Position numbers and translations under genes: made by a program | The notes under the pieces: generated by a model | The model's input: the letters and a program-made list of their open reading frames with translations, nothing else | Databases searched by the model: none | What the model was told of the DNA's origin: nothing | Source: Candidatus Endomicrobium procryptotermitis | Lineage (GTDB): Bacteria; Elusimicrobiota; Endomicrobiia; Endomicrobiales; Endomicrobiaceae | Assembly: GCA_031279415.1 (NCBI GenBank) | Contig: JAITIP010000018.1 | Coordinates: 124,001-188,000, forward strand | Reading direction: 5' to 3' | Length of the DNA stretch: 64,000 nt | In this document: piece by piece, positions 46,861-54,721 of the stretch | Position numbering within the stretch: position 1 is the first letter of the stretch | How the letters are laid out: each line of letters opens with the position of its first letter

Positions 46861-47400
46861 ATGATTGATTATAAATTTTTTAAAAAGAATAAAGGGCAAG
46901 CTCTGGTAGAAGCTGCTTTAACAGCTCCGTTGATAGTTTTTTTTCTTTTCACGATTGTATGGTTTGGGCAGATAATGTTGACATGGCAACAACTTGTCAG
47001 CGCGGCTAGGTACGGCACAGACTTAATTGCCTATACTCCTTATAGTAAAGAAGAAATCAAAAAGGATATAGTCAATTATCTTTGTCACGGAAATAATATA
47101 GGCAGAATACTGTCGAGAGATCCAGATGATTTGGATGTAAAAGTCGAAATAAATGATTTAGAACGCCCGATAGATTTCACATTATCTATCGATAATATAG
47201 GTGCATTTAATCCTATAAATATTTTAGAGATGGTAATGGATTCTAATCCTATAGTTCCCGCAATGTCTTATGTAGAAATTAAATACAGGCATAAAATTCC
47301 ATTTATTCTGAGATTTTATAGAGAAGAAATATATATAAAAACGCGTCTTGAAGTTTTGGCCGATTCAGGCGCCCCGAAAAGCAACAGGAGAAGAAGATAA
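46861..47400 (+). CDS. TadE-like pilus assembly pseudopilin
   Basis: Minor pseudopilin of Tad/Flp pilus systems. A short basic N terminus ends in KGQALVEAALTAPLIVFFLF, the TadE-type pattern with Glu5-like residue and hydrophobic helix. The periplasmic remainder has no known domain. 179 residues; first gene of the tad locus. The ATG has no clear SD. TATATA two bases before the ATG is too close to be its promoter. Confidence 0.8.
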   Translation: MIDYKFFKKNKGQALVEAALTAPLIVFFLFTIVWFGQIMLTWQQLVSAARYGTDLIAYTPYSKEEIKKDIVNYLCHGNNIGRILSRDPDDLDVKVEINDLERPIDFTLSIDNIGAFNPINILEMVMDSNPIVPAMSYVEIKYRHKIPFILRFYREEIYIKTRLEVLADSGAPKSNRRRR

Positions 47401-47490
47401 AAAATCCGTTTGATTTACAATTAGGCGGTTAGACTCGAATAATATTAAAAGACTTGCACAATGCAATATGATCTAAACAGGGAGGTTAAA

Positions 47491-47661
47491 ATGTTCAGAT
47501 TTCTCAGAAGCAGAAGAGGGCAGGGTATGGTCGAATACATACTTATAGTGGCCGTGGTTGTCGGAATTGTTTTTGTAGCTTATAAAGCTATGGGTGGAAA
47601 TGTAAAAACACAGTTTACAAACGCTTCAAATAAAATTGCTACTGCACATGTTCCGGATTAA
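47491..47661 (+). CDS. Flp/Fap-type major pilin
   Basis: Small pilin of 56 residues: FRFLRSRRGQGMVEYILIV, where the basic leader ends in Gly and is followed by the conserved Glu-Tyr of Flp pilins, then a hydrophobic helix and a short C-terminal tail. The ATG at 47491 has GGGAGG upstream; an earlier in-frame ATG at 47461 lacks an SD. The prepilin peptidase TadV is not in the window. Confidence 0.85.
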   Translation: MFRFLRSRRGQGMVEYILIVAVVVGIVFVAYKAMGGNVKTQFTNASNKIATAHVPD

Positions 47662-47680
47662 TCCGTAGGAATATTTGCTT

Positions 47681-48529
47681 ATGAAAAAATCAATTTTAAT
47701 TGCAATTATTTTTGCGATTTTGGCTGTATTTTTTGCCTATACTTATCTTTCCAATCTTGAAAGCACGTACAGAACTATGGCTGAACCCATAACGGTTGTA
47801 ATCGCCAATCAAAAAATCAGTCAAGGCTCGGTAATAACAAAAGAGATGTTATTAGAAAAGAAAGTTCCAAAAGAGTACGTGCAGCCTAAAGCTTTTGCCA
47901 CAATAAATAATTTATTTACAAAAGAAGGAAAGTCCATTTATATTTCTTTAAACACCGTTGAAGCCGGCGAGCAAATAATGTCCACAAAAGTTTCAAGAGC
48001 AAACGCCGAGACCGGAATAGTCAATATTATTCCCGAAGGTTATAAAGCTTTGGCCGTAAATTTTGATGTGGAAAGTTCAAACGTTATCACTCCCGGCAGT
48101 AGAATAGATATTTTGAGCGTTATCGAATATGAGGACACAGATGGTAAAATGCAGGAATCGATATTTATGATAGCTCAAAATATTTTGGTTTTAGCAGTCG
48201 GAAACAATTATCTTGGTTCAGTCGCTCAAAAAAATGACGATGAGTCAAGACGTGGATCGATAATCACGCTTGCAGTAACTATTGAAGAAGCGCAGACTAT
48301 AATGCTTGCCGCAGATAACGGCAGTCTTAAATATATTATACGTCCAGCAGGCGACAGTGAAATTTATAGTATTAAACCTATGAAAATTTCCGATGTTATA
48401 AAAGATATTTCAACAATTGCTGTTCGGCAAAAATCCGCTTTCGGAAACGATAAAGAAGATATAAAAGCGATGAAACAACGTCAGAAAGAAGCTTTAGAAA
48501 TGATAAATAAATACGCAAATCAGAAATAG
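47681..48529 (+). CDS. cpaB: CpaB/RcpC-like pilus assembly protein
   Basis: Tad secretion component associated with the outer-membrane pore. One N-terminal membrane anchor is followed by a SAF domain (ITVVIANQKISQGSVITKEM) and the CpaB beta domain (IIPEGYKALAVNFDVESSNVI; GSRIDILSVIEY). 282 residues. ATG chosen at 47681, since the TTG at 47675 adds nothing. Between the pilin and the ATPase, as in other tad loci. Confidence 0.87.
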   Translation: MKKSILIAIIFAILAVFFAYTYLSNLESTYRTMAEPITVVIANQKISQGSVITKEMLLEKKVPKEYVQPKAFATINNLFTKEGKSIYISLNTVEAGEQIMSTKVSRANAETGIVNIIPEGYKALAVNFDVESSNVITPGSRIDILSVIEYEDTDGKMQESIFMIAQNILVLAVGNNYLGSVAQKNDDESRRGSIITLAVTIEEAQTIMLAADNGSLKYIIRPAGDSEIYSIKPMKISDVIKDISTIAVRQKSAFGNDKEDIKAMKQRQKEALEMINKYANQK

Positions 48530-48535
48530 GTAAAA

Positions 48536-50536
48536 ATGCTTCTAATTTCACCTACATGCAGTTCTCTTCACAGAGCGTTGATAGCAAATGGATTATCTTC
48601 GGTATGTAAAAATAACGGATACGAAAATATCATTTTAGATTTTTCCGTGCCTGGAACTGAAGCTTTTTGGTCTGTTTATAAAAACGGAATGAAATATGTC
48701 GAAGATATTTTGCCCGTTTTACCCGCAATAAATCCTAAAATGATAAGAAGTTTATTATCTTCTGGCAATATTAATTTTGTGCTGGGACTTAAAAACAAAA
48801 AAATTGGCGATATTAATTATGAAAGCATTGTTTATTTGATTGATGTGGTTGAAAATGCCTATAAATACATTTTTTTAATTCTTCCAGAAGAGTTTAACTA
48901 CAATGTTTCGGAAATTATAAGAAAATCGCAGTCAATACTTTTACCTTTTACTTCGGATCCGATTTCGGCCAAAAATGTTTTGCTAAACGCCGAGTTTTTG
49001 TCGGAAAAATGTGCCGCAGCGTTAAAAATATTTCCCTTGAAACTTGACATCGGCTATGAATTCCACAGCGAAAAAATACTGCATTTATCTCAAATATTTA
49101 AAAATTGTTTATCCGCTGATTTTAATTTTGAAACGCAGAGTCGGATACTTTCTCCAAAATATTCTTTTAAGGACAGTTCGGATGGTTTTGTTTTGGCTTT
49201 AAACGAAATTATCAGACGTTGCAGTTCATATTTAAACAAAAATGCAGATATGGACGAAAGCGGTAAAAACTATTTTCAAAATGAAGAAGTTTATAAAGAG
49301 CTGAGAAATAAAATACATACCGAGCTTGTAGAACGAATGAAAGAATATGCTGACGAAATCGATACCGAGCAGCTTAAAAAAACGTCGAGAATAAAAATAG
49401 ACGAAATATTAAAAAAGCTCGATATCAAACTTCCTGACAATATTTCCCAAAGGCTTTTTAAAGAACTTTGCGATGACGTCGCGGGACTTGGCGTTTTGGA
49501 AGATTTTTTAAAAGATAGTGCAATTACCGAAATTATGGTCAACGGACCTGACAGCATTTACATAGAAAAAGCCGGAAAACTTACAGAAACGGGCATTTCT
49601 TTCCCAGATGAAAAAAGACTTAGGACTGTTATAGACAGAATTGTTTCTCAGATAGGCAGGCATATTGACGAAGCCTCTCCGATTGTCGATGCAAGACTCA
49701 AAGACGGTTCGCGTGTAAATGCTGTTATCCGCCCAATTTCTCTAAACGGACCGATTCTTACAATAAGAAAATTTTTGAAAAATAAACTTTCTGCACAAGC
49801 TTTGATTGACTCAGGAAGCATAAGCAAAGAGATGATAGAGTTTTTAAAAACGGCGGTGTTGCTTAAAAGGAATATAATCATATCCGGAGGTACAGGAACA
49901 GGAAAAACAACGCTTTTAAATGCTGTATCATCTTTCATTCCGCCAAAAGAAAGACTTGTAACCATAGAAGATTCGGCGGAACTGCAGCTTCAGCAAAAAC
50001 ATGTGGTAAGGCTTGAAAGCCGTCCAAAATCCACCGAAGGCACAGGAGAAATAAGCATAAGAAGACTCGTAGTCAACGCCTTAAGAATGCGTCCTGACAG
50101 AATTATAGTTGGAGAGTGCCGTTCCGGAGAATCTCTTGACATGCTACAAGCTATGAATACAGGGCATGAAGGCAGCATGTCAACCGTGCACGCCAATTCA
50201 GCGCAGGATGCAGTTTCACGGCTTGTAACTATGGTGTTGATGTCTGGAGCAGATCTTCCGGAACGTTCTATAATTTCACAGATAGCTTCTGCTGTAAATG
50301 TCATAGTGCAGCTTACTCGTTATTCCGATGGTTCAAGAAAAATATCTTCAATAGCGGTCATAAATAAAACCGACGATGAAAGAATTTTTGAAATTAAAAA
50401 TGTATTTCAGTTTGAATTAAAAGGAATCAAGCAGGAAAAGCAACAGGGCGAGTTTAAGCCTTCCGGTTATATTCCCGATTTTATAGTAAACGCTTCAAAA
50501 AGCGGAATTAATATTGATATGGAAATTTTTAAATGA
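48536..50536 (+). CDS. cpaF: CpaF/TadA pilus ATPase with fused degenerate CpaE/MinD-like N-terminal domain
   Basis: Residues from about 260 on are a complete CpaF: EIMVNGPDSIYIEKAGKL, SRVNAVIRPISLNGP, Walker A GGTGTGKTT at 451-459, VGECRSGESLDMLQAMNTGH, and STVHANSAQDAVSRL. Residues 1 to about 215 resemble the MinD-like core of CpaE/TadZ (NIILDFSVPG; YKYIFLILPEEFN; SQSILLPFTSDPISAKNVL), but the P-loop position reads SPTCSSLHRAL with no Gly-Lys-Ser/Thr. A charged coil links the two. CpaF alone is about 450 residues. No separate cpaE is present in the locus. Confidence 0.85.
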   Translation: MLLISPTCSSLHRALIANGLSSVCKNNGYENIILDFSVPGTEAFWSVYKNGMKYVEDILPVLPAINPKMIRSLLSSGNINFVLGLKNKKIGDINYESIVYLIDVVENAYKYIFLILPEEFNYNVSEIIRKSQSILLPFTSDPISAKNVLLNAEFLSEKCAAALKIFPLKLDIGYEFHSEKILHLSQIFKNCLSADFNFETQSRILSPKYSFKDSSDGFVLALNEIIRRCSSYLNKNADMDESGKNYFQNEEVYKELRNKIHTELVERMKEYADEIDTEQLKKTSRIKIDEILKKLDIKLPDNISQRLFKELCDDVAGLGVLEDFLKDSAITEIMVNGPDSIYIEKAGKLTETGISFPDEKRLRTVIDRIVSQIGRHIDEASPIVDARLKDGSRVNAVIRPISLNGPILTIRKFLKNKLSAQALIDSGSISKEMIEFLKTAVLLKRNIIISGGTGTGKTTLLNAVSSFIPPKERLVTIEDSAELQLQQKHVVRLESRPKSTEGTGEISIRRLVVNALRMRPDRIIVGECRSGESLDMLQAMNTGHEGSMSTVHANSAQDAVSRLVTMVLMSGADLPERSIISQIASAVNVIVQLTRYSDGSRKISSIAVINKTDDERIFEIKNVFQFELKGIKQEKQQGEFKPSGYIPDFIVNASKSGINIDMEIFK

Positions 50537-51351
50537 TTAAAATACTGTTGTTGATTACTTGCGGCATTACGGTTTTTCTGATATTTTTTTCAATTATATC
50601 GGTAATTAAAGGTAGTAAAAATAATAAAAAAAACAGAAATCTTAATTTAAAATTTAAAGAGATGACCTTTTTAAAAAAGAGAATATTTATGGCTGTCATC
50701 ATTTTTTTCATAACGGTGATAATTCTGCAAAATACTATCTTTGCTTTAATCGCCTTCATATTATACATTTATTTTGATTGGCATATTCAAAATAACAAAT
50801 CCAAACAAATGGCCGTTCTGATAGATAAACAAGTCATAGAAGCTCTAACTATCATTAAAAATTCCGTACAATCCGGACAATCTTTAGCACAGGCTATGGG
50901 TACGACTGGAGAAGAATTAAAAGAACCTATTAAAAGTGAGTTTATTAAAATGTCTGAAAGTCTTTCTTTGGGAGCAAGTTTTGACAAGGTTTTAATCAAC
51001 GCATCGGAGAACGCACCAAGTAGAGAATTCAAACTTATGATAGACACCATACGCATATCAAAAGATTCAGGTGCAAGTCTTACTGGCATATTTGATAGAA
51101 TAATTTTGGCGACTTCGCAAAGGTCCGCCATGCGAGCGAAAGTTGATGCTTTAACAGCGCAGGGAAGAATGTCCGGAAATATAGTGAGCGTTATACCTTT
51201 TTTTGTCATTTTAATGATGTATACTATTGAGCCTGATATGATGAGATCATTATTTACCACTCTTGCTGGAAATATGCTTCTGTTTATAGTGGTTATAATG
51301 GTGTTAACCGGTTCTTTTGTAATAAGAAAATTAACGGAGATAGATTTCTGA
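50533..51351 (+). CDS. tadB: TadB-like inner-membrane pilus assembly protein
   Basis: T2SS F-type platform protein. N-terminal hydrophobic segments, then the cytoplasmic GspF domain (VIEALTIIKNSVQSGQSLAQAM; ISKDSGASLTGIFDRI) and two C-terminal membrane helices. 272 residues. Its ATG overlaps the cpaF stop by four bases (ATGA), so translation is coupled. Confidence 0.87.
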   Translation: MIKILLLITCGITVFLIFFSIISVIKGSKNNKKNRNLNLKFKEMTFLKKRIFMAVIIFFITVIILQNTIFALIAFILYIYFDWHIQNNKSKQMAVLIDKQVIEALTIIKNSVQSGQSLAQAMGTTGEELKEPIKSEFIKMSESLSLGASFDKVLINASENAPSREFKLMIDTIRISKDSGASLTGIFDRIILATSQRSAMRAKVDALTAQGRMSGNIVSVIPFFVILMMYTIEPDMMRSLFTTLAGNMLLFIVVIMVLTGSFVIRKLTEIDF

Positions 51352-52235
51352 TGTTTTTATTATTGTTTTGCGTTTCATTGTTTATAGCCATTTTTTTTGC
51401 CGCAGATATTTTTCTTGCAGGAATCACTACTATGGAAACTGAGGGAAAAGTACACAATGCCGTTGAAAAGAAAAAGAGTAAAAGTTTTATAATACCTGTA
51501 ATTTTGCGCTGGGCTGACGGAATCGGTTTTTTATTTTCAAAAATCAAATATAAAAAATTTCAAAACTATATGCAAAAACTTCAGTCGGATTTAACCGCTC
51601 TCGGCGGTGATTATGAGAAATTTGACTCACATCAACATTTTGCCTTGTGTTTATTTTCGATGTTTACTGGAATACTTTTCTGCGTGTGTTTTATAAGTAC
51701 GGATATTATACTCATAGTTATAATTGCAGTTTTATTTTTTTCTTTGCCGATTATAAAAGTAAAAGAGGCCGTAAAAAGGAGAAGAGAAGCTGTTCTTAAA
51801 CAACTTCCGGATATGGCAGATTTGTTATCTGTCATGATGGAGTCAGGTTTGGATTTTTTCAGCGCCGCCGATAAAGTCATTACAATTTTAAAGGGACCTC
51901 TTGCCGATGATTTCAAAGATTCTTTGGCAAAAATCTCACTCGGATACGACAAAAAAGCAGCTTTAAACGAAATGGTCGTCAAAAGTGGAGTAGAACAGCT
52001 CGGATTTTTTATCAGAACTATTAATATGGCTTTAGATGCCGGAGTTGGCATGTCCGACACTTTAAAAAGGCTCGCCGAACAAATGAGGATGGAAAGAACC
52101 GCCGCGGCAGAAAAAAAGGCGCAGGAAGCGCCGATAAAAATGCTTATTCCTCTGGTACTTTTTATATTTCCGACGATATTTATAGCTATTTTTGGTCCCA
52201 TCGTAATAAATTTTGTACAAACCGGCGGATTTTAA
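51351..52235 (+). CDS. tadC: TadC-like inner-membrane pilus assembly protein
   Basis: Second F-type platform protein, pairing with TadB. GspF domain: LPDMADLLSVMMESGLDFFS, GVEQLGFFIRTINMALDAG and LAEQMRMERTAAAEKKAQEA, the latter typical of TadC, followed by the terminal membrane helix. 294 residues. Its ATG overlaps the tadB stop by one base (TGATG). A perfect 8-bp inverted repeat (CTTAAATA 52264-52271, TATTTAAG 52282-52289) lies 30 bases after the gene. Confidence 0.87.
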   Translation: MFLLLFCVSLFIAIFFAADIFLAGITTMETEGKVHNAVEKKKSKSFIIPVILRWADGIGFLFSKIKYKKFQNYMQKLQSDLTALGGDYEKFDSHQHFALCLFSMFTGILFCVCFISTDIILIVIIAVLFFSLPIIKVKEAVKRRREAVLKQLPDMADLLSVMMESGLDFFSAADKVITILKGPLADDFKDSLAKISLGYDKKAALNEMVVKSGVEQLGFFIRTINMALDAGVGMSDTLKRLAEQMRMERTAAAEKKAQEAPIKMLIPLVLFIFPTIFIAIFGPIVINFVQTGGF

Positions 52236-52492: not shown

Positions 52493-53275
52493 ATGAAAAA
52501 AAAGAAATTGATTTTTATTTTTTGCTGGTTTGTTTTTGCTTCTGTATTTCTTTACGGATGTGGCAATGGTAATATTTTTTCTTGGGCGCACAATTCCGGC
52601 AGCGGCGATTATGCTTCATTGATGTCGGATGGCGATGCCGCCATGAAAGATAAAAATTATAAAGATGCCGAAAAATATTATTATGGCGCCATGAATAAAA
52701 AACCAGATGATAAGGAAGCAATTTACGGTTATTGTTCGGCTGTTTTTGCGGATGCGGTAAATCCAATATTTACCGATATCGTTAATACTATAATTAACGA
52801 AGAGTCAGGGGGAAAGCTTTTTGAGAATTTAGATCGTAACAAATTAACAAATTTGGAAGATGCTCTAGAAAAAGTTGTCGGTAAAAATAACGATCTGCTT
52901 TCAAAAGTGGTTGATGACGGCGATATTTCATATAAAGAAGGTATGGTTGATAAGAATTTAAATGCCGCCGTTTCCTATCTGCTTTACGGTGTATTACAAA
53001 TAATAAATAGCCCTGACCCTGATATCAAAAATGCAATTATATTTGATAATAATTTTGAAATTGATTCTATTCCAGATTATAATGATCAAAGTGCCAGCCC
53101 AGCAGTGAGAAATGCAATTTCCGAACTGATTGCCTATGTAGAAAAAGCGTACAAATGTGTAGAAAGAATTTCTTCGGATTACGGAATAGATACTTCCCTT
53201 ATAGAAGATGTCCGAAAAAATAATATGAATATTAGAGAAGGTTTAATAAATAAAGGATATACAGTTAATTTTTAA
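52493..53275 (+). CDS. Predicted lipoprotein with a TPR-like motif
   Basis: The signal peptide ends in the lipobox LYGC (Cys near residue 23). A low-complexity Gly/Ser stretch is followed by one TPR-like helix pair (ASLMSDGDAAMKDKNYKDAEKYYYGAMNKKPDDKEA) and a helical remainder without known domains. 260 residues, own promoter, and 21 bases before the outer-membrane protein gene. TadD of tad loci is also a TPR lipoprotein, but the resemblance here is only general. Function unknown. Confidence 0.7.
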   Translation: MKKKKLIFIFCWFVFASVFLYGCGNGNIFSWAHNSGSGDYASLMSDGDAAMKDKNYKDAEKYYYGAMNKKPDDKEAIYGYCSAVFADAVNPIFTDIVNTIINEESGGKLFENLDRNKLTNLEDALEKVVGKNNDLLSKVVDDGDISYKEGMVDKNLNAAVSYLLYGVLQIINSPDPDIKNAIIFDNNFEIDSIPDYNDQSASPAVRNAISELIAYVEKAYKCVERISSDYGIDTSLIEDVRKNNMNIREGLINKGYTVNF

Positions 53276-53296: not shown

Positions 53297-54721
53297 ATGA
53301 AAAAATGTCTACTTTGTCTCTTGTCAGTGCTTTTTCTTTTTGCTTCCGGCAGCGTTTTCGCTTTTGAAGACAGCCAGGCTTTGATAAAAGGAATTCGTCC
53401 GATGAGTATGGGCGGAGCGTTTACGGCTGTAGCAGATGATGAAAATGCTTTTTTTTATAACCCGGCAGGCATAATGTATAGGAAAGGAAGTCTGTTGCAG
53501 ATATTTGGCATAGATTTTTCGGTTAATACGGCAATTTTTGATTTTGCGAATTTTTTAAATGACAATAAAAGCGATCTAGAGGATTTTGATTCTCTCAATT
53601 CAGAAGATCAATCGGAATTGTTAAAAAAAATTAACGATCAGATGATAGATCTTTCTCCGAATGTACTTTTTTCTCTTCCCAATTTTGCTTATATTTCAAA
53701 ACCTATAATGATTTCTGATAATTATTTGTCGTGGGGTGCTGGATTGTTTACCTTGTTCAATGCAAATTTTAAATTTAATCAAAGCATGATAGTTCCGAAT
53801 TTTTCATATCTTGCTGAAGTTACGGCTGTGGCGGCCATACCGATTTCTTATAGAATTGATTCTTTAAAGGCTTTAAAGATGCCTGGAAAATTATCCATCG
53901 GTACAAGTTTTAAATATATATACAGAGGCAGAGCTTCCGAGTCAAATATGTCGGTTGTTGAGTTTGAAGATATGAGCATTCCGTATCAGATAGGCAGCGG
54001 TTATGGAGTTGATTTCGGATTAATTTATCACTTAAATCCGAGATGGAATTTCGGTATGCAGCTTACCGACGCTTTTTATACGAATATAGAATACGATAAA
54101 TATGAAGATGACGACAATCCCGTTAAGTCGAAATCTGCATATACCGCTGGGATACGTCCCGAATGGAACATAGGCGTTGCGTATTTCCCGGACAGAATTT
54201 ATTATTGGTCGGGAAAATATTTTGAAACAGATAAAAGATTTACTTTTGCCGCCGATTTGACGGATATAGCAAACGGCGATGAAACTCTGACAGACTCCTT
54301 TTGGAAAAAACTTCACTTTGGTGTGGAATATAAACTCGCTCCCTTTGCTCTAAGAGCCGGTTTTAACTCCGGATACCCTACCGTCGGAGCAGCTGTTGCT
54401 ACAAATGTCGTTCAGCTTGAATATGCATTTTATGGAGAAGAAGAAGGCAGGTACGCAGGACAGCAGCCTTCATGGTTCCACAGAATTCTTTTCTCAGTAA
54501 AAATAGGAGAAAATAAAGGAAGAGCTTATGGAAAATCTTATGAAAAAGAAAAATCAAAAACTGAAAGTTCAGATGAAAAAATAGAGGATGATTCCGACAT
54601 AAATGAAATTTCTAGCGCAGAATCAGAAAAAGAAAATTTAGAAGATATTAAGCCTGCTGAAATACCTAAAGATGCAAAAGAAATAATCAGCAAAGCCGCG
54701 GAAATAATGGAGATTAAATAA
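53297..54721 (+). CDS. PorV/UPF0164-like outer-membrane beta-barrel protein
   Basis: Signal peptide at 1 to about 22, then LIKGIRPMSMGGAFTAVADD and AFFYNPAGIMYRKGSL, the UPF0164/PorV (FadL-superfamily) N-terminal pattern. Alternating aromatic beta strands follow (YGVDFGLIYHLNPRWNFGMQ, HFGVEYKLAPFALRAGFNS). The last 70 residues are an acidic, Lys/Glu-rich tail outside the barrel. 474 residues. Transport or secretion cofactor roles are known for relatives; none can be read here. Confidence 0.78.
   Translation: MKKCLLCLLSVLFLFASGSVFAFEDSQALIKGIRPMSMGGAFTAVADDENAFFYNPAGIMYRKGSLLQIFGIDFSVNTAIFDFANFLNDNKSDLEDFDSLNSEDQSELLKKINDQMIDLSPNVLFSLPNFAYISKPIMISDNYLSWGAGLFTLFNANFKFNQSMIVPNFSYLAEVTAVAAIPISYRIDSLKALKMPGKLSIGTSFKYIYRGRASESNMSVVEFEDMSIPYQIGSGYGVDFGLIYHLNPRWNFGMQLTDAFYTNIEYDKYEDDDNPVKSKSAYTAGIRPEWNIGVAYFPDRIYYWSGKYFETDKRFTFAADLTDIANGDETLTDSFWKKLHFGVEYKLAPFALRAGFNSGYPTVGAAVATNVVQLEYAFYGEEEGRYAGQQPSWFHRILFSVKIGENKGRAYGKSYEKEKSKTESSDEKIEDDSDINEISSAESEKENLEDIKPAEIPKDAKEIISKAAEIMEIK

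Follow-up and report, generated by a model that had tools for sequence, protein, structure and literature searches.

The tad locus of the window, by which we mean the whole stretch of 64,000 nucleotides of DNA that was analysed, encodes a 666-amino-acid protein in which a CpaE/MinD-like domain is fused to the CpaF/TadA motor. The N-terminal domain is, with very little doubt, homologous to MinD/CpaE and has lost its ATP site. Elsewhere, Tad systems have CpaE as a separate protein, an ATP-binding dimer that helps to place the machine, and CpaE/TadZ is described as a ubiquitous Tad component. Judged from the alignments of the fused domains, the fusion is old and mostly carries an intact P-loop, and the loss of the ATP site in the window's lineage was stepwise and later than the fusion.

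The fusion gene and its tad locus

The CpaE-like part is encoded in frame with cpaF, between cpaB and tadB, and not as a separate protein. The genes of the locus are all oriented in one direction, in the order TadE, Flp-like pilin, CpaB, fusion, TadB and TadC:

46861..47400, plus strand: TadE-like minor pilin (PF07811, 7.7e-11)
47461..47661, plus strand: Flp-like pilin, 66 amino acids (Flp_Fap 1.3e-6, under the family cut-off; class III signal 2.5e-5)
47675..48529, plus strand: CpaB/RcpC (TIGR03177, 1.1e-37)
48536..50536, plus strand: CpaE/MinD-like domain fused to the CpaF/TadA motor, 666 amino acids (ATG start, single frame; profile and fold evidence)
48536..49231, plus strand: N-terminal domain, residues 1-232, predicted MinD/ParA fold without P-loop (AlphaFold2, Foldseek, profile link)
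48548..48571, plus strand: former Walker A position, residues 5-12, now SPTCSSLH (alignment, entropy)
48659..48760, plus strand: most conserved part of the N-terminal domain, residues 42-75, a candidate contact surface (alignment conservation)
49232..49483, plus strand: low-confidence linker, then helices 250-271, 277-295 and 301-316 (AlphaFold2), which match the three-helix NTD1 of CpaF (PMC11300603)
49484..50371, plus strand: CpaF NTD2 and ATPase domain, residues 317-612 (Pfam, NCBIfam, motifs, PDB matches)
49883..49912, plus strand: intact Walker A of the motor, SGGTGTGKTT, residues 450-459 (sequence, homologue alignment)
50533..51351, plus strand: TadB platform protein (T2SSF 5.6e-12; TadB by position)
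51351..52235, plus strand: TadC platform protein (T2SSF 1.5e-13; TadC by position)

The fusion frame is real and not due to chance, since the N-terminal domain was matched in 55 of the 96 genomes of the class, mostly within one open frame that is long enough to encode CpaF as well. A separate CpaE, the absence of which from the locus had already been noted in the first-pass annotation, was found neither beside the locus nor elsewhere in the genome, which is 100% complete: AAA_31 matches in this genome are Soj/ParA adjoining ParB, a NifH-like protein and TrkA, and a search with the profile of the fused domain retrieved Soj only. TadZ_N was likewise not matched in this genome; however, it is a weak model, which stays below its cut-off in all control genomes. 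A NifH-family protein (Fer4_NifH 7.4e-98) is encoded at G000:C43:24228-25103 (L036:826-1701, minus strand), and a small frame beside it resembles NifX-type proteins by eye.

A secretin gene is absent from the tad locus of the window. Downstream of tadC lie genes for a lipoprotein-like TPR protein (52493-53275) and an outer-membrane-protein-like product (53297-54721). A second Tad-related locus is located about 52 kb beyond the end of the window (G000:C18:240340-243128; L131:8341-11129). It encodes a short secretin of 239 amino acids (Secretin 3.2e-43, with little else in the protein), followed by proteins that are TadE-like and TadG-like by eye and have no Pfam match. In this second locus, the secretin is retained and an unfused CpaF such as those of L167-L169 is absent.

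The CpaF motor

The C-terminal part of the fusion is, by its sequence, a complete CpaF/TadA-type motor, as had been proposed before. The motor spans approximately residues 300-612 of the 666, i.e. the C-terminal ~310 residues, and is recognized by Pfam (T2SSE, 9e-62) and by NCBIfam (TIGR03819, 2.3e-97 over residues 300-608, with a score of 326 bits that lies below the curated cut-off of 373). Solved CpaF chains of the Caulobacter type (8RKD, 8RJF and 9E24) match the motor at 3.7e-100, and the Walker A sequence, the Asp-box, the Walker B residue E527 and the residues of the His-box are invariant among 81 motor homologues. By analogy with solved CpaF, the motor would be a homohexamer.

The fusion shares the three-helix region NTD1, NTD2, the ATPase domain and all motifs with the solved CpaF/TadA proteins. 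In contrast, where Caulobacter CpaF has its disordered and dispensable NTD0, the fusion has the folded MinD-like domain. A Caulobacter CpaF variant lacking residues 1-78 still supports phage infection, which is abolished if NTD1 is removed as well (PMC11300603). In the AlphaFold2 model of the full-length fusion, the linker between the two halves has a pLDDT of 55 at residues 231-240, and the mutual placement of the MinD-like domain and the motor is not confident (pTM 0.56).

Fold and homology of the N-terminal domain

Residues 1-245 gave no significant match to Pfam, NCBIfam or PDB sequences, and nothing significant was obtained when the PDB was searched with the N-terminal domain alone (phmmer) or with the profile of its own family (hmmsearch). 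For structure prediction, AlphaFold2 was supplied with an alignment of 37 relatives from the same family, none of which has a P-loop. The resulting model of residues 1-232 has a pLDDT of 89.6 and a pTM of 0.88, and its best Foldseek matches belong to the MinD/ParA superfamily (3ea0, 1.2e-7; MinD 1hyq, TM 0.69/0.72); TadZ 3fkq (TM 0.64), FlhG, ParA and the nitrogenase Fe protein were also matched. The MinD/CpaE-like core that had been recognized by its strand and helix pattern was thus recovered by a fold search, which returned MinD and TadZ and not an unrelated fold. As the direct sequence searches gave nothing significant, homology is carried via fused domains of other Elusimicrobiota with a GVGQ loop. 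The profile of the window's family matches the fused SKGGVGQT set with 97.6% (E 3.6e-12, 228 columns), and the profile of this set (A4) in turn matches 3ea0 at 3.6e-32 and MinD 1hyq at 3.6e-19. Furthermore, the fused domains with an intact loop match TadZ 3fkq at 9.6e-6.

One could argue that the N-terminal domain is a Rossmann-like domain of unrelated origin and not derived from CpaE, given that the domain alone lacks Pfam and PDB sequence matches and that the direct profile comparison of the window's family with the intact P-loop set is weak (11.6%). However, the intermediates, to which the family is linked over 228 columns, themselves match MinD/ParA structures, the predicted fold is that of MinD/ParA, and the position of the domain in the gene is unchanged at every step of the loop series, which makes such an origin extremely improbable.

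The domain has the MinD/ParA fold, the tad locus and the position just ahead of the CpaF motor in common with CpaE/TadZ proteins of the FleN/MinD subfamily, such as TadZ of E. rectale (3FKQ) and CpaE of Caulobacter. It differs from them in that it is fused to CpaF, has lost both Walker A and the Walker B Asp, and has no receiver domain; the protein starts directly with strand 1 of the MinD fold, and an N-terminal atypical receiver domain is absent. The nearest solved fold, which is also the nearest sequence match of the intermediates, is the ParA-family ATPase 3EA0 of Chlorobium tepidum; unlike the fused domain described here, 3EA0 is a separate ParA-family protein in its entry.

Distribution of the fusion

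With the motor as a query, 273 of the 341 genomes of the phylum were found to contain CpaF. Open frames of roughly 600-900 amino acids are present at nearly all CpaF places among the matches listed, and nearly all of about 50 loci that were read in detail begin with the MinD-like domain. The short frames examined are contig ends in L112, L134, L135, L013 and L025, and the frame is split in L133, where a MinD-like frame of 275 amino acids and a CpaF frame of 426 amino acids overlap, and in L123. Going by these frames, the fusion extends across the Elusimicrobiota and is found in nearly every main tad-locus CpaF examined, which is not a claim of universality. Thus, the search for the fusion that the first-pass annotation had proposed revealed an arrangement that is phylum-wide, mostly with an intact P-loop, and not peculiar to the locus of the window.

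Unfused CpaF proteins (~350-410 amino acids) also occur, in some genomes as a second copy. The unfused copies of L167-L169 cluster on the motor tree (support 97), and in G002 (L161), an unfused copy of 413 amino acids is the only match at the threshold used. Among the relatives of the window's genome, unfused second copies of about 350-405 amino acids are encoded at L168:1486-2544, L169:1510-2559 and L167:1342-2559; those of L168 and L169 adjoin a short Flp-like pilin, and that of L169 also adjoins a short secretin resembling that of L131. A tblastn search of plasmids with the whole fusion gave no match covering 80% of the fusion among the best 5000 records, which is a limited test of other phyla.

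A CpaE-CpaF fusion or a stepwise loss of the ATP site was not found in a search of the open-access literature, although absence there is not proof. Denise et al. describe Tad systems in Elusimicrobia, and the passages of their article on Elusimicrobia, TadZ and fusion do not contain such a fusion (PMC6668835). The parts are known; within the open-access literature searched, the new element is a phylum-wide CpaE-CpaF fusion, the ATP site of which was lost in steps.

Loss of the ATP site

The loop following strand 1 reads SPTCSSLHRAL, and GK[ST] is absent from this position in the window's protein and 36 aligned members of its family, in agreement with the P-loop loss reported in the initial reading. 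The Walker B Asp of the MinD-like domain is also missing in the window's protein. Going by its motifs alone, the domain would neither bind nor hydrolyse ATP. Fusions of other Elusimicrobiota, for instance L114 and L105, are direct homologues with the same domain order and the same kind of locus; in contrast to the window's protein, they retain the Walker B Asp as well as GPKEGVGK[ST] or a similar sequence, and may still bind ATP.

An alignment of the fused domains revealed a graded series. The loop reads GPKEGVGK[ST] in most of the Elusimicrobiota, [SA]KGG[VC]GQT, with Lys replaced by Gln, in L094, L096, L098, L099 and L103, and ETKEALGQ or ETREGLGQ in L100, L101 and L091, and it can no longer be recognized in the window's order and family; the groups with the Lys-to-Gln loop fall between the intact groups and the window's family. 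Pfam recognition follows the series, with CbiA/AAA_31 matched in L114, L105, L094 and L096, weakly in L057 and not in L042 and L014. On a first motor tree, all 52 rows that lack GK group together as a clade (SH-aLRT 99), and the four loop states require 5 state changes compared to 26.8 when shuffled. A second motor tree, which also includes the unfused copies and family f17, does not recover the clade without GK, and long branches come together on it. A single origin of the Lys loss is therefore likely on the basis of the first tree.

In f17 (L159:577-2436, L162:535-2457 and the divergent L160:1492-3135), the fused N-terminal domain also lacks a P-loop. The C-terminal half of this domain matches the intermediates with 96.8%, based on an alignment (A6) of three rows only, one of which overruns the domain. 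Because of the position of f17 on the tree, its P-loop was probably lost independently of that of the window's lineage. Deviant Walker A motifs also occur in E. rectale TadZ and in Liberibacter CpaE, which is encoded by a separate gene and has the degenerate sequence KGGVGSS (PMC8513845); fusion is thus not required for such decay. Within the intact group, L113:4921-7155 (minus strand) is the single case of GVGST in place of GVGK[ST], which recalls the Liberibacter motif.

A possible role of the N-terminal domain

The receiver domain (TadZ_N region) is the part that has been proposed to target TadZ, and positioning of the MinD type normally runs on an ATP cycle. In Caulobacter, six CpaE dimers were fitted into a ring that encircles the CpaF hexamer, and the CpaE-CpaF contact was predicted using AlphaFold3 (PMC13170226). 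Since a folded CpaE-like domain occupies the place of the dispensable N-terminus of Caulobacter CpaF, we favour, as reasonably probable, the idea that the fusion represents a covalent and ATP-independent version of the CpaE collar around CpaF, which is built in and reaches the motor without ATP. The fusion would put one CpaE-like copy on every motor subunit, thereby rendering recruitment by ATP-dependent dimerization unnecessary, and the ATP site would have been free to decay in the window's lineage after the fusion. The N-terminal domain might then act as a fixed collar on a flexible linker and attach the motor to TadB/TadC, the platform in the inner membrane, or to CpaB; no docking to the platform can be seen in the full-length AlphaFold2 model. 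More tentatively, and with rather more doubt than confidence, it can be speculated that the hexamer serves as the template for an ATP-independent ring of six CpaE domains in a 1:1 ratio, and that the ATP site, dispensable after the fusion, disappeared at least twice, in the window's lineage and in f17, leading to a constitutive collar of the Tad motor.

The domain could instead still position the motor at the cell pole or another site without ATP. It is conserved, and published work links CpaE/TadZ to the placement of Tad machines and CpaE to the localization of the secretin CpaC (PMC13170226, PMC11300603, PMC6668835). However, the receiver domain is absent, albeit by a weak TadZ_N test that stays under the cut-off in controls as well, and both motifs needed for an ATP cycle are lost, which makes this reading rather unlikely. 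The label of a polar localiser given in the first-pass annotation is thus unsupported, as the domain has no receiver region, and docking to the motor, or a scaffold role, is the safer reading. The 1:1 ratio suggested in the same place does follow from covalency; however, six dimers per CpaF hexamer were modelled in Caulobacter (PMC13170226), so that a 1:1 ratio would be a change in the machine and not a fixing of the usual ratio.

A phylum with a covalent CpaE, in one lineage of which the domain persists although its ATP site has been dismantled, provides a natural experiment that sets the docking role of CpaE apart from its ATP cycle. The 1:1 ratio could be compared with the stoichiometry modelled in Caulobacter, and the fusions are constructs whose motor and putative collar cannot separate. 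The arrangement also explains why an annotation pipeline would score this tad locus as lacking CpaE.

Maintenance and decay of the N-terminal domain

The N-terminal domain is maintained under purifying selection, because its dN/dS within the window's genus is about 0.11-0.14, compared to 0.02-0.04 for the motor. Among 37 relatives, two residues, D35 and W45, are invariant; Y48, K53, Y54 and N66 (each at least 90%) as well as S144 are almost so, and conservation is highest at residues 42-75. At the former P-loop, the mean entropy is 2.17 bits in the window's family versus 0.45 at the intact loop of the relatives.

A harmless relic that is being lost would account for the disappearance of the motifs and for the faster evolution of the domain, which is 73-84% identical between congeners compared to 94-96% for the motor. 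It would also fit with damage to the gene, seen as broken or decaying copies in several of the family's small genomes (genomes G031, G034, G052 and G055; loci L136, L137, L138 and L059). The latter agrees with a report of pseudogenes in the Tad region of Endomicrobium trichonymphae Rs-D17 (PMC8809381). The low dN/dS and the invariant residues argue against a relic, however, and an undamaged CpaF without the domain was not seen in the family, where shorter frames lie at contig ends or belong to damaged copies; we thus regard a relic as improbable. L136 also contains a Ser-rich frame of 988 amino acids, which may be foreign or antisense low-complexity sequence.
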